From: Natrinema halophilum
GTDB lineage: Archaea; Halobacteriota; Halobacteria; Halobacteriales; Natrialbaceae
Assembly (NCBI RefSeq): GCF_013402815.2
Contig: NZ_CP058601.1
Coordinates: 2,914,001-2,978,000 of the forward strand
Length of the DNA stretch: 64,000 nucleotides
Direction of reading: 5' to 3'
Shown piece after piece: positions 34,086 to 42,707 of the stretch. Within the stretch, counting starts at the first letter, position 1; every line of letters starts with the position of its first letter. The notes beneath the pieces were generated by a model. The model ran no database searches, was not told the DNA's origin, and saw only the letters and a program-made list of their open reading frames with translations. The translations under genes and the position numbers were made by a program.

Positions 34086-36443
34086 ATGATGGACGACCGC
34101 GATCACGGAACCGGGAACGCGTCCGACGACGACCGAGATGACCACCTGCGGTCGGATCGGGTCGAGGAGTCGATGCTCGAAGACGAGGCGGACGACGCGG
34201 AGCGAGGTCGCGACGAGATCCGCGACCGACAGGAGCACCAAGGGGACCACGCGGGGCACGAACACGAGACCGGTGACGCCCACCGGGGCGGCGGTGGCGG
34301 CAACAACGGGGATACCCACGGCGGGGATGGGATGCACAGTACCGACCGCGAGCACGACGATCACGGCGGTGGCGGTATGCACGCCGGCCACGAAACCATG
34401 TTCCGTCGACGGTTTTTCGTCTCGACGCTGCTCTCGATTCCGGTCCTCCTGTACAGCGAAACGCTCCAGGAGTGGCTCGGCTTCTCGGTCCCGGCGTTTC
34501 CCGGCAGCGAGTGGATCAACCCCGTTTTCGCGGTGATCGTCTTCGCCTACGGCGGGGTCCCGTTCCTCCGGATGGCCGCACCCGAATTGCGCGAGCGCGC
34601 GCCGGGGATGATGACGCTCATTTCGATGGCGATCACCGTCGCGTTCGTCTACAGCCTCGCGAGCGTCGTCGTCCCCACCGAATCGGCGTTCTTCTGGGAA
34701 CTCGTCACACTCATCGACATCATGTTGCTCGGCCACTGGATCGAGATGCGCAGCGTCCGGCGGGCCTCAAGCGCGCTGGACGAACTGGCGAGGCTCATGC
34801 CCGATACTGCGGAGCTGATCACCGACGACGGTGAGACGGAGGAAGTTCCCGCGAACGAACTCGAGGAAGGGGATCTCGTGCTCGTCCGGCCCGGTGCGAG
34901 CGTCCCCGCCGACGGCGTCGTCGAGGAGGGTGATTCGGACGTCAACGAGTCGATGATCACCGGCGAGTCCACGCCCGTCTCGAAGGAACCCGGTGCCGAG
35001 GTGATCGGCGGAACGGTAAACGGCGACGGGAGCCTTCGCGTCCGGATTAGTGCGACGGGCGAGGAGACGACGCTGGCTGGCATCATGCGTCTCGTCGAGG
35101 AGGCCCAGCAGAGCGAGTCGCGGACGCAGGCGCTCGCGGATCGCGCGGCCGGCTGGCTGTTCTACGTCGCGCTCGGTGCGGCCGTCGTCACGGCCGTCGC
35201 GTGGACGGTCGCGAGGGGGTTCGATTCGTCGGTGATCGAACGCGTCGTCACCGTCCTCGTCATCGCCTGTCCGCACGCCCTCGGGCTGGCGATCCCGCTG
35301 GTCATCGCGATCAACACCTCGCTCGCCGCGCGCAACGGCATGCTCGTCAGGGATCGAATCGCCATGGAGCAGGCACGGAACCTCGACACCGTCGTCTTCG
35401 ACAAGACCGGGACGCTCACCGAGGGCGAGCAGGGCGTCGTCGATATCGCAACCGTCGATGGCGTCACCGAGGAGGAAGCCTTCACGCTCGCAGCCTCCGT
35501 CGAAGCGGATTCGGAACACATGATCGCGCAAGCGATCCGCGAGGCGGCCGACGAACGCGGCATCTCGAGGCTGACCGCGACCGACTTCGAGGCGCTGAAA
35601 GGACGTGGCGTTCGCGCGACGGTGGACGGGGCGGCGCTCCGCGCGGCCGGATTGTCTCGCGGCGATGAGCCGCGAGACGGCGAACGCGTCCACGTCGGTG
35701 GCCCGAATCTCCTCTCCGAACTCGAAGGCGACGTGCCGGCAGCACTCGAGCAGTTCGCCGACCGGGCCGGTGAGAACGCACAGACGGTCGTTTATTTGGT
35801 CAGGGAGGGAACTCCGGTGGCCGCATTCGCGCTCGCCGACGTCATCCGCGACCAGAGCTATCAAGTCGTCGACGCGCTCCACGAACTCGGGCTCGAGGTG
35901 GCAATGTTGACCGGCGATTCCGAGGACGTGGCCCGCGCCGTCGCGGACGACCTCGGGATCGATACGGTCTTCGCCGAGGTGTTACCGGAGGACAAGGACG
36001 CGAAAGTGACGGAACTCCGCGAGCGGGGTGATATGGTTGCGATGGTCGGCGACGGCGTCAACGACGCACCGGCGCTCACTCGAGCGGATATCGGCATCGC
36101 GATCGGGAGCGGGACGGACGTCGCCGTCCAGTCTGCGGACATCATTCTCGTCCAGAACAATCCGATGGACGTCGTCCGGCTCGTAACGCTCAGCCGAGCG
36201 AGCTACCGGAAGATGCAACAGAATCTCGTCTGGGCCGCTGGGTACAACGTCTTCGCGCTCCCGCTGGCTGCCGGAATCCTCGCTCCGATCGGTATCCTCC
36301 TCTCGCCGGCCGTCGGCGCGCTGCTCATGTCGCTCAGCACGGTGATCGTCGCGATCAACGCGCAGTTCCTCCGGCGCATCGACCTCTCCGTGCCGAGTCT
36401 ACCGGGGGTCTCCGCGCCGCGGGAACCACAACCGGCAGACTGA
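34086..36443 (+). CDS. copB: P1B-type heavy-metal ATPase, CPH (CopB) class
   Basis: A 785-residue ATP-driven metal exporter. The first 104 residues are soluble, rich in Asp, Gly and His ([30 protein letters not shown]), replacing the usual HMA domain as a metal-binding tail. Then come two helices, the actuator domain with TGES at 292-295, the intramembrane ion motif CPH at 395-397 ([12 protein letters not shown]), phosphorylation Asp439 in DKTGT, and the hinge [13 protein letters not shown] together with a His-rich tail is characteristic of the CopB group (copper or silver). Direction and metal are inferred. It opens a metal-handling region running to 42.7 kb. Confidence 0.92.
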
Positions 36444-39402: not shown

Positions 39403-39771
39403 TCACTCGTTTCGCTCGAGTGCATCTCGTCGCCGTTCGTACTCCTCGTCGTTCAGGTCGCCGCGGGCGTACGCGAGGCGAAGTTCCTCGAGCGCTCGAT
39501 CGGTGTCGTCTCCGCCGGCCAGTGTGCGAACGAGGTAGTATCCGGCGCCGACGATGGCGGCGACGAACAGGAGCTGCATCAGGACGGCGACGAGAGCCAT
39601 CCAACCGGCTCCCGTGCCGCCACCCCACATTCCGTGGCCCCACGCGCCACCCATCATCGGGCCGAACCCCATCATTCCGACGCCCATGAAAATCGCGGGG
39701 AGAACCACGAGGATACCGAGGGTAACGAGGACGATCGTGACAATATTCGTGTCTTCAGTTCGTGTTGTCAT
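39403..39771 (-). CDS. SHOCT-domain membrane protein
   Basis: A 122-residue protein. Two helices (IVTIVLVTLGILVVLPAIFMG and WMALVAVLMQLLFVAAIVGAGYYLV) flank a Met/Gly/His/Trp-rich loop (MMGFGPMMGGAWGHGMWGGG). It ends in a SHOCT motif (ALEELRLAYARGDLNDEEYERR). The Met-rich loop lies between the helices, a setting that could bind copper. It lies between the ABC permease, with which it converges, and the YHS permease. Confidence 0.82.
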   Translation of the reverse strand: MTTRTEDTNIVTIVLVTLGILVVLPAIFMGVGMMGFGPMMGGAWGHGMWGGGTGAGWMALVAVLMQLLFVAAIVGAGYYLVRTLAGGDDTDRALEELRLAYARGDLNDEEYERRRDALERNE

Positions 39772-40185: not shown

Positions 40186-41583
40186 ATGGAACCGACACTT
40201 GTCGAGGGGGTCCTCGAGTCACTTCGGATCGGACTCGGATTCCTCTGGACGGCGGCGTGGGCGATCATCATGGGGCTTACGATCACGAGCCTCGTCCAGG
40301 TGTACGTCTCGAAGGAGCGTATGGCGCGAGTGCTCGGTGAAAGCGACCTCGAAAGTCTCGCGAAGGCGACCGTCTTCGGCGCGGCGAGCAGCGGGTGTAG
40401 TTTCGGTGCCGTCGCCATTGGCAAGGGCCTCTTCGCGAAGGGCGCTCACGCAGTGAATTTTCTCGCGTTCATGTTCGCCTCGACGAACCTGATCGTCGAA
40501 CTTGGACTGATGATTCTGATCCTCCTGGGGTGGGAGTTTCTCGTCGCGGAACTCCTTGGCGGACTCATCCTCATCGCGGTCATGGCCGCTATCGTCCAGT
40601 TGACGCTCCCGGAGGCGCTCTTCGATGACGTTCGTGCGGAACTCAATCGGCGTGACCGCGACCGCGGTGTCACGGAAGACCCGACGTGCGGGATGGAAGG
40701 GAGCGACGAGCACTCCATCGTGACCGACGGCGGCGAGACGCTGCAATTCTGCTCCGAGGGATGTCTCGAGACCTATCGTCAGCAAACGGCGGGCGGCGGT
40801 GAGTGGCACGACGAACTCCGCTCCTGGGGAGGCTGGTACAAACTCGGCAACCAGTACCGCAAAGAGTGGTCGATGATCTGGAAGGACGTCGTCGCGGGCT
40901 TTCTCGTCTCGGGATTCGTCATCGTGTTCGTCCCCCAGCGGGTCTGGAACGCGCTGTTCGTTCAGGGCGACGGCCTGTTCGTGACCGCCGAGAACGCGAT
41001 CATGGGCGTCGCGATCGCGGTCATCAGCTTCGTCGGGAGCATGGGGAACGTCCCGTTTGCGGTCGCGCTCTGGGGCGGCGGTATCAGCTTCGCCGGCGTC
41101 ATCGCGTTCGTCTACGCTGATCTCATCACGATCCCGGTACTGAACGTTTACCGGAAGTACTACGGCTGGTCGATCATGCTGTACATCCTCGGCGTCTTTT
41201 TCGTGACCATGGCCTTTACCGGCTTTCTCATGGAACTGCTCTTCGACGCGCTCGGAATCGTGCCGAACCTGGCCGGCGGCGAAACGGCAACCGATGCGAC
41301 GTACTTCGAGTTCAACTACACCTTCTATCTTAACCTCGTCGCGTTCGCACTTTCCGGCTTCCTCCTGTACGTGTACCGTCGCGGACTCGGCGCACCTGGA
41401 CAGCATCGCGATCCGGTGTGTGGCATGCGGACCGACGATACTGGCCCGAGTGCCACGCACGACGGTGATACCTATTATTTCTGCTCGACCGCCTGCAAGC
41501 GGACGTTCGAAGATTCGCCATCCGAGTTCGCAGGGCACCCATCGCACAGTTCCGGTTCCGAAACAGCACACGATCACCACTGA
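40186..41583 (+). CDS. UPF0718/ArsP-like permease with two YHS modules
   Basis: A 465-residue permease of the DUF318/UPF0718 family. Two sets of helices (about 12-140 and 230-400) each carry the family's Gly-rich helix: ASSGCSFGAVAIGKGLF at 67-83 and SFVGSMGNVPFAVALWGGG at 281-299. Between them, at 163-200, is a YHS/TRASH-like module with Cys168, Cys189 and Cys193. A second follows the last helix at 407-440 with Cys412, Cys433 and Cys437. A His-rich tail ends the protein (HPSHSSGSETAHDHH). The family exports metals or organoarsenicals. The YHS modules probably bind a soft metal and deliver it to the pore. Confidence 0.85.
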   Translation: MEPTLVEGVLESLRIGLGFLWTAAWAIIMGLTITSLVQVYVSKERMARVLGESDLESLAKATVFGAASSGCSFGAVAIGKGLFAKGAHAVNFLAFMFASTNLIVELGLMILILLGWEFLVAELLGGLILIAVMAAIVQLTLPEALFDDVRAELNRRDRDRGVTEDPTCGMEGSDEHSIVTDGGETLQFCSEGCLETYRQQTAGGGEWHDELRSWGGWYKLGNQYRKEWSMIWKDVVAGFLVSGFVIVFVPQRVWNALFVQGDGLFVTAENAIMGVAIAVISFVGSMGNVPFAVALWGGGISFAGVIAFVYADLITIPVLNVYRKYYGWSIMLYILGVFFVTMAFTGFLMELLFDALGIVPNLAGGETATDATYFEFNYTFYLNLVAFALSGFLLYVYRRGLGAPGQHRDPVCGMRTDDTGPSATHDGDTYYFCSTACKRTFEDSPSEFAGHPSHSSGSETAHDHH

Positions 41584-41793: not shown

Positions 41794-41991
41794 TTATGCG
41801 GATGCGTCGTAGCCAGCCTCGTCGACTGCGTCGACGAGCACCTGTGGCGCTACATCCCCGTCGACGGTCACCCGTTCCGCGTCGCGGTCGACGTCGACGG
41901 TCGTTACGCCGTCGACGTCCTCGAGTGCCGCTTCGACGGTCTGTTCGCAGTGCTCGCAGGACATCCCTTCGACGGTAATCGTCTGGCTCAT
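41794..41991 (-). CDS. copZ: CopZ-like metallochaperone
   Basis: A 65-residue single heavy-metal-associated (HMA) domain. The metal motif is GMSCEHC, with Cys12 and Cys15. The beta-alpha-beta-beta-alpha-beta pattern is complete, ending in VDAVDEAGYDASA. Such proteins carry Cu(I) to P1B ATPases. The copB-type ATPase nearby has no HMA domain of its own, so this chaperone could supply it. It is divergent from the Lrp/TRASH regulator with a 128-bp shared control region. Confidence 0.93.
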   Translation of the reverse strand: MSQTITVEGMSCEHCEQTVEAALEDVDGVTTVDVDRDAERVTVDGDVAPQVLVDAVDEAGYDASA

Positions 41992-42074: not shown

Positions 42075-42119
42075 CGATAGCCGCCACGTTCTTTGCAATC
42101 GAACTCCTATCCGTGCGAC

Positions 42120-42707
42120 ATGCGCGATCTCGACGAGACGGATATGACGATTCTACGACTGCTGGGCGACGACGCTCGTCGGCCGTACAGCGACATCGCC
42201 GAGGAGGTCGGTCTCTCCGGGCCGGCTGTCTCGGACCGCGTCAGGCGTCTCGAGGACGCGGGAGTCATCGAAGGCTTTACCGTCAACGTCGACCAGTCGC
42301 AGCTCCGGGCGGGCGTCCCGGTGTTCGTTCGGGTGTCCGTTCCCGCGAGCGAGGTCGACGACTGCAGAGCCGCGATCGCCGCCGCCGATGCCGTCGAACA
42401 CGTGTTCGTGTCCGCGGACGGCGATATCCTGTTTTACGCTCGTGCGCAGGTTCAGCAGGTCCGCGAGTGGCTGGATGGGATTCTCCCCGGCGACGACGCC
42501 GACTACGAGGTGACGCTGATCGACGACGCCGAGTGGTCACCCTCGCTCGACGGCACGTCGTTCGCACTCACCTGCGCCGAGTGTGGCAACACCGTCGACA
42601 GCGAGGGAGAGTCGACCCGCATCGACGGCGACGTCTACCACTTCTGTTGTTCCTCCTGTTCGAGCCGGTTCGAGGGACGATACGAGCGGCTCGAGGAAGG
42701 AGTGTGA
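42120..42707 (+). CDS. Lrp/AsnC regulator with C-terminal TRASH domain
   Basis: A 195-residue metal-responsive transcription factor. Residues 1-60 are the AsnC HTH (LDETDMTILRLLGDDARRPY, IAEEVGLSGPAVSDRVRRLE). Residues 65-135 form the RAM-like effector domain. Residues 148-190 are a TRASH module with Cys152, Cys155, Cys176, Cys177 and Cys180 (TCAECGN, YHFCCSSC). The family includes copper regulators of haloarchaea that induce a P1B ATPase and a chaperone. The start is the ATG at 42120; the nine residues before it are not part of the family pattern. Its divergence from copZ supports a copper role. Confidence 0.9.
   Translation: MRDLDETDMTILRLLGDDARRPYSDIAEEVGLSGPAVSDRVRRLEDAGVIEGFTVNVDQSQLRAGVPVFVRVSVPASEVDDCRAAIAAADAVEHVFVSADGDILFYARAQVQQVREWLDGILPGDDADYEVTLIDDAEWSPSLDGTSFALTCAECGNTVDSEGESTRIDGDVYHFCCSSCSSRFEGRYERLEEGV

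Follow-up and report, generated by a model that had tools for sequence, protein, structure and literature searches.

The locus described here raises the question of what a membrane permease that carries two YHS modules moves across the membrane, in which direction, and what the modules contribute. The window, by which we mean the whole analyzed stretch of 64,000 nucleotides from Natrinema halophilum, contains one such gene (Table 1). A preceding sequence-only reading had described a UPF0718-type permease with one three-cysteine module between its helical halves, another beyond the final helix, plus a tail rich in His, and had suggested that metal is loaded directly at both halves of the pore. 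Our proposal is a copper permease of the secondary (non-ATP) type that most likely exports Cu(I)/Ag(I) and whose modules would collect or sense metal on the cytosolic side, a reading to which we give about an even chance. Papers are cited by PMC number, and statements attributed to them refer to the available portions of their text.

Table 1. Features of the permease gene and its surroundings (window positions)
Feature	Position	Strand	Residues	Evidence and remarks
Copper-type P-type ATPase	34086-36443	+		NCBIfam TIGR01511, 604 bits (cut-off 397); His-rich N terminus, CPH motif
Divergent small membrane protein, SHOCT-like end	39403-39771	-		SHOCT 24.6 bits, under the cut-off of 27
ArsP_1/COG0701 permease, two YHS modules	40186-41583	+	465 aa	ATG start; full-length relatives in the best 80 of 150 loci
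First pore hairpin, S69-x-C71-S72	40357-40419	+	58-78	Motif invariant in 19-row alignment; predicted cytosolic entry
Middle YHS/TRASH-like module	40675-40785	+	164-200	Ligand candidates D165, C168, C189, C193; invariant in 55 rows
Second pore hairpin, G-S-M-G-N-x-P	41029-41085	+	282-300	S285, G287, N288, P290 invariant in 19-row alignment
C-terminal YHS domain	41407-41538	+	408-451	Pfam YHS; ligand candidates D409, C412, C433, C437
His-rich tail	41536-41580	+	451-465	His 451, 454, 462, 464, 465
HMA copper chaperone, CopZ-like	41794-41991	-		Pfam HMA, E 5.2e-19; NCBIfam CopZ_AFE_1862, 80.5 bits, just under the cut-off of 85
Lrp/AsnC regulator with C-terminal TRASH (42564-42704)	42093-42707	+		PF24273, 90.4 bits

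The permease and its closest named family

The described layout is present in full and the cysteine numbering given for it is exact; Cys71 completes the cysteine set of the protein (71, 168, 189, 193, 412, 433 and 437). What had been called UPF0718 corresponds to ArsP_1/COG0701: the Pfam model ArsP_1 (PF03773) covers residues 14-350 (E 2.5e-55; 188.2 bits, cut-off 32.3), and all 55 rows of the family alignment match it at E <= 0.01. The acidic residues E105 and D312 are invariant in the 19-row family alignment and could couple transport to an ion gradient. At least three His occur within the final 40 residues in 77 of 80 relatives (the best 80 of 150). A sequence search found no solved structure for the permease part. 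A full-length AlphaFold model from the 55 rows, which included 51 of the distinct double-YHS loci, reached a pLDDT of 47, the alignment being too shallow, and was set aside for topology and fold search.

The nearest NCBIfam model is that of the SO_0444 Cu/Zn efflux family (NF033936), which has a role in copper and zinc stress: Shewanella requires SO_0444 when stressed with ZnSO4 or CuCl2, and the protein has accordingly been designated a copper/zinc efflux protein (PMC3219624). However, the model matches residues 22-365 with 70.6 bits, far under the family's cut-off of 300. In Nitratiruptor, Cd and Cu induce the family (PMC10092412), and a selenoprotein form with UxC has been listed (PMC13188914). 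A permease classed at the level of COG0701 rose by 3.49 log2 at 0.5 mM in silver-stressed Haloferax alexandrinus (PMC10694973).

The two modules

The C-terminal module is a YHS domain by its Pfam match (PF04945; E 2.7e-14, 53.3 bits, cut-off 30.3) and also matches PF24273, the TRASH family of the neighboring Lrp regulator (29.6 bits, cut-off 27). It is the sole stretch of the protein that the Pfam YHS model recognizes; the middle module is not matched by this model, and its hits in Pfam are confined to zf-FCS, DUF7576 and TRASH_ZMYM4, each under its cut-off. In a direct hhalign comparison the two modules nevertheless align across 40 columns (Prob 97.6; E 3.9e-12 for this one comparison), and a profile comparison of the paralogues' middle modules with the C-terminal module gave Prob 99.1. 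Judged by these profile matches, the middle module is homologous to the C-terminal YHS domain. A model of residues 143-232 (43 rows) had a mean pLDDT of 70, with 75-80 across the middle module. The top PDB matches that Foldseek found for the middle module were to the TRASH domain of ribosomal L24e (E 0.06-0.13, prob 0.93-0.99, 39 columns), and VIA-align returned L24e, MYND fingers, toluene monooxygenase and the copper chaperone NosL, all with Z < 4. These structural matches are weak, yet in line with a TRASH-like fold.

Two C-x20-C-x3-C patterns in one protein are not a chance occurrence, because they never arose in 20,000 shuffles of the sequence, in which a single such pattern appeared 21 times. 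Among the best 80 of 150 relatives both three-cysteine modules are kept in all 80, and Asp-Pro precedes both of them in 79. YHS domains have a fourth ligand beside the three Cys (PMC4626032), and Asp165 and Asp409 occupy that place. Copper ATPases with a YHS domain and the YHS adenylyl cyclase of M. phlei likewise combine an Asp-Cys3 YHS domain with a metal-linked protein (PMC4626032), but there the host protein is a different one and only one module is present. Stand-alone YHS proteins of 46 residues (L090, 16353-16493) and 53 residues (L095, 3446-3607) are encoded near such permeases; the fused module may have come from proteins of this kind.

Membrane topology

Eight topologies were compared by counting Lys and Arg in the loops (positive-inside) of 33 family members, with a hairpin option that was introduced from the motif and charge pattern. 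The best model places the N terminus outside, folds both motif segments as hairpins and puts both modules inside, with a mean score of 13.9, followed by 9.6 and 8.5. It is the best model for 23 of the 33 rows, and some model with both modules inside is favored by 26. The middle loop lies inside in every row, and an outside C-terminal tail is preferred by seven. Models with spanning hairpins, which place the modules on opposite faces, score lower and were rejected. Given the charges and the assumed hairpins, it is quite probable that both modules lie on the cytosolic face; this supports, and does not prove, the shared face on which the earlier suggestion had hinged. The first hairpin, with S-x-Cys71-S, would open to the cytosol, and the second, with G-S-M-G-N-x-P, would open outwards. 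The loading of metal at both halves of the pore is unsupported as it had been worded, because just the first hairpin faces the cytosol in this model.

Bacterial relatives and phylogeny

The bacterial permeases that we examined, ten in number and all plasmid-borne, come from Paraburkholderia fungorum, P. caribensis (a broken copy), two Sulfitobacter, Roseovarius, Indioceanicola, Alteromonas, Mycolicibacterium, Frondihabitans and Streptomyces. They share the core and the invariant motifs with the haloarchaeal protein and mostly have copper genes around them, but none of the ten contains a YHS module. In five (both Paraburkholderia, Mycolicibacterium, Frondihabitans and Streptomyces) the middle loop is rich in Met and His (GSMEGHAAM...), in two of them together with a long His-rich tail, at the sites of the archaeal YHS modules. 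The Alteromonas and alphaproteobacterial permeases have no Met/His-rich stretches beyond a few Met.

An alternative explanation for the modules is that they serve the same copper exporter as sensors, gating the permease or recruiting partners, and do not carry metal to the pore. The YHS domain of the mycobacterial adenylyl cyclase provides a Cu2+-specific switch of this kind (PMC4626032), and the match of the C-terminal module to the TRASH family of the regulator points the same way. The absence of modules from the bacterial relatives suggests, moreover, that they are not needed for basic transport. However, the Met/His-rich stretches that half of the bacterial relatives have at one or both sites look more like a means of metal collection, and we regard the sensor explanation as possible but doubtful. 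Taken by itself, the choice between carriers and sensors is about evenly balanced.

For the phylogeny we used the membrane core without the YHS columns and included eight of the 80 double-YHS loci; L106, L107, L108, L110, L113 and L114 (broken frame) were omitted, as were the redundant single-YHS permeases of L092, L100 and L104 and the second permease of L073. The tree separates a branch of double-YHS proteins (100/100) from one of single-YHS paralogues (100/99), and the double-YHS branch adjoins the YHS-free bacterial permeases with G-S-M-G-N (96/92). The single-YHS haloarchaeal permeases, which include two paralogues in N. halophilum, share their core with the double-YHS form and carry a YHS/TRASH module at the same place, the middle loop, but lack the C-terminal YHS domain and have C-S-V-G-N, not G-S-M-G-N, in the second hairpin. 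Constraining all YHS-containing rows to one group gave an AU p of 0.10 (with a warning about long branches), so that this arrangement, and with it one common origin for the middle module, is not rejected. In the second-hairpin motif of 33 rows, all 18 sequences with Cys at the first position have Val or Ile at the third (C-S-V/I-G-N), and the 15 with Gly at the first position have Met (14) or Ile (1) at the third. This pattern may reflect the replacement of a thiol by a thioether in the outer hairpin.

Gene neighborhoods and the transported metal

The Lrp-TRASH regulator, the HMA chaperone and the copper-type ATPase all lie within ~6 kb of the permease, as in a haloarchaeal cop neighborhood. 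The regulator begins ~0.5 kb downstream of the permease; its TTG probably lies upstream of the true start. The genome has four matches to PF24273: in the regulator, in the double-YHS permease, in a permease fragment on another contig and, below the cut-off, in one paralogue. Outside permeases and the permease fragment, the regulator is thus its only carrier genome-wide. In Halobacterium an Lrp-TRASH protein controls a copper ATPase and HMA chaperones (PMC3551603; PMC3600143). The same types of regulator and chaperone as in this circuit (VNG1179C as Lrp-TRASH, the YvgX ATPase and HMA chaperones) adjoin the permease here, whereas the word permease is absent from the main text of the paper on the Halobacterium system (PMC3551603).

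We searched the surroundings of the best 80 of 150 relatives with tblastn, ~5 kb on each side and in some cases cut by contig ends. The SHOCT-like protein is the commonest conserved neighbor, with 59 of the 80 loci, followed by the ATPase type (53), HMA (23) and Lrp-TRASH (18); merging near-copies into 54 clusters leaves 36, 29, 21 and 16, respectively. For the ABC ATPase, the ABC permease and the HTH-10 protein of the window, a single match each was found, in the 80 loci as in the 54 clusters. At least one of ATPase, HMA and Lrp-TRASH lies within ~5 kb in 33 of the 54 distinct loci, and none of the three does in the other 21. With about eight P-type ATPase places in the 4.84 Mb of the N. halophilum genome, ~2% of such stretches would contain one by chance. 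The ATPase matches reach down to 32% identity, so that some of these ATPases may serve zinc. A Haloarcula plasmid encodes, in the vicinity of the permease, an ATPase, an HMA protein, a plastocyanin, an Lrp-TRASH regulator and a lone YHS protein. In bacteria the permease is accompanied by CueR and a heavy-metal ATPase, by PCu(A)C and SCO, by a multicopper oxidase and an ATPase, or by CusA/CzcA; no metal gene is visible around the Frondihabitans copy.

The sequence-only reading had assigned the modules a role with metal, and the neighbors in archaea and bacteria make copper the most likely one, since a copper-type ATPase, a CopZ-like HMA protein and Lrp-TRASH adjoin the permease here and CueR and SCO do so in bacteria. 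By analogy with these neighborhoods, we consider copper quite probable as the metal and export fairly probable as the direction. COG0701 permeases are mostly annotated plainly as permeases, and one branch of them is linked to copper by its gene surroundings in both archaea and bacteria.

Import of metal in place of efflux is improbable. The family fold does not fix the direction, and one bacterial relative is found near an Nramp-type metal transporter; however, the stress phenotype of SO_0444 (PMC3219624) and neighbors of the resistance type (copper ATPase, CueR, Lrp-TRASH and multicopper oxidase) speak for efflux. Given these neighbors, we retain copper export as the preferred reading.

Least probable of all is an exporter of arsenicals or other soft metalloids like ArsP, for which the Pfam family is named, with YHS modules that hold zinc for structure, as treble clefs can be purely structural. 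A COG0701 permease has been reported beside an ArsR regulator in an Arthrobacter element (PMC6305408); however, the annotation around the plasmid relatives that we viewed contains no ars gene, the neighbors are copper genes, both modules retain their Asp-Cys3 candidates, and the gene context argues against identity with the ArsP methylarsenite exporter.

A possible mechanism

As a copper exporter, the protein would consist of two inverted halves, each of three membrane helices and one re-entrant hairpin, and a last helix. Both Asp-Cys3 modules and the His tail would bind metal on the cytosolic face. The modules might take metal from the CopZ-like chaperone and pass it to Cys71, or, in an alternative step, might open the path when metal is plentiful. 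Metal would enter by the first hairpin at Cys71, the second hairpin would open to the outside, and an ion gradient presumably drives the transport. Two modules on the predicted inner face offer a testable picture of how copper could feed or gate a secondary transporter without an ATPase.

A broader generalization, more tentative than the copper reading itself, is that these are widespread ATP-independent haloarchaeal copper exporters with metal acceptors at two cytosolic sites (YHS modules here, Met/His-rich stretches in some bacteria). Cu(I) would pass from a CopZ-like chaperone through the modules to the single pore Cys, by analogy with the N-terminal domains of CopA, and the metal module would be shared with an Lrp-TRASH sensor that probably controls the exporter. 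In the published model for Halobacterium, as far as the accessible text describes it, copper exits by a P-type ATPase (PMC3551603); the permease would add a second, mobile exit route.

Distribution of the double-YHS design

Our scan of genome contigs yielded 150 relatives, of which the best 80 were used for counts; all 80 have both modules. Haloferax larsenii (L055) and H. prahovense (L070) are among the hosts of the double-YHS form. Some relative of the permease, single-YHS paralogues and weak matches included, is found at E 0.001 in 246 of 391 Halobacteria genomes. In a search of the phylum, 33 of 294 genomes match at E 1e-10, and 16 stretches were retrieved. One of these encodes a double-YHS permease and 12 encode other permeases of the family, each with a middle YHS/TRASH-like module; the remaining three contain a P-type ATPase with a YHS end (L106), a fragment (L107) and no matching ORF (L108). 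One genome that belongs to the phylum but not to the order has a double-YHS copy (G417, 72%). No relative of the permease was found in the viral contigs scanned.

The layout is thus widespread, and the search for it found no functional or experimental study of a two-YHS permease in the literature covered, most of which lies outside subscription journals. We dropped the notion that YHS domains in permeases are a novelty: a 2015 paper already lists a haloarchaeal permease with a YHS/TRASH domain, Halovivax ruber AGB15007.1, which we group with the single-YHS permeases by its description there (PMC4626032). The double-YHS design is common in haloarchaea and, in the literature covered, uncharacterized.

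The genome of N. halophilum contains two full permease paralogues with the middle module only. A paralogue of another type in this genome (L003, 919-2793) is longer at its C-terminal extension, and its TRASH-like middle module is of the CxxC type. The remnant of a second double-YHS permease, comprising the last helix, the YHS module and the tail, lies on a different contig of N. halophilum (L004, 1579-1830; G000:C2:163811-164083).

Two groups of near-identical blocks surround the gene in other haloarchaea. In one (L026-L042), blocks of ~5-11 kb are 97.8-100% identical across Halorubrum, Halobellus, Halohasta, Haloplanus, Halopenitus and Halostagnicola; in the other (L021-L046), blocks of the same size and the same range of identity are shared by Haloarcula, Halorussus, Halosegnis, Halorientalis and Halorhabdus. 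Such identity between genera is a sign of the recent transfer of whole copper islands.
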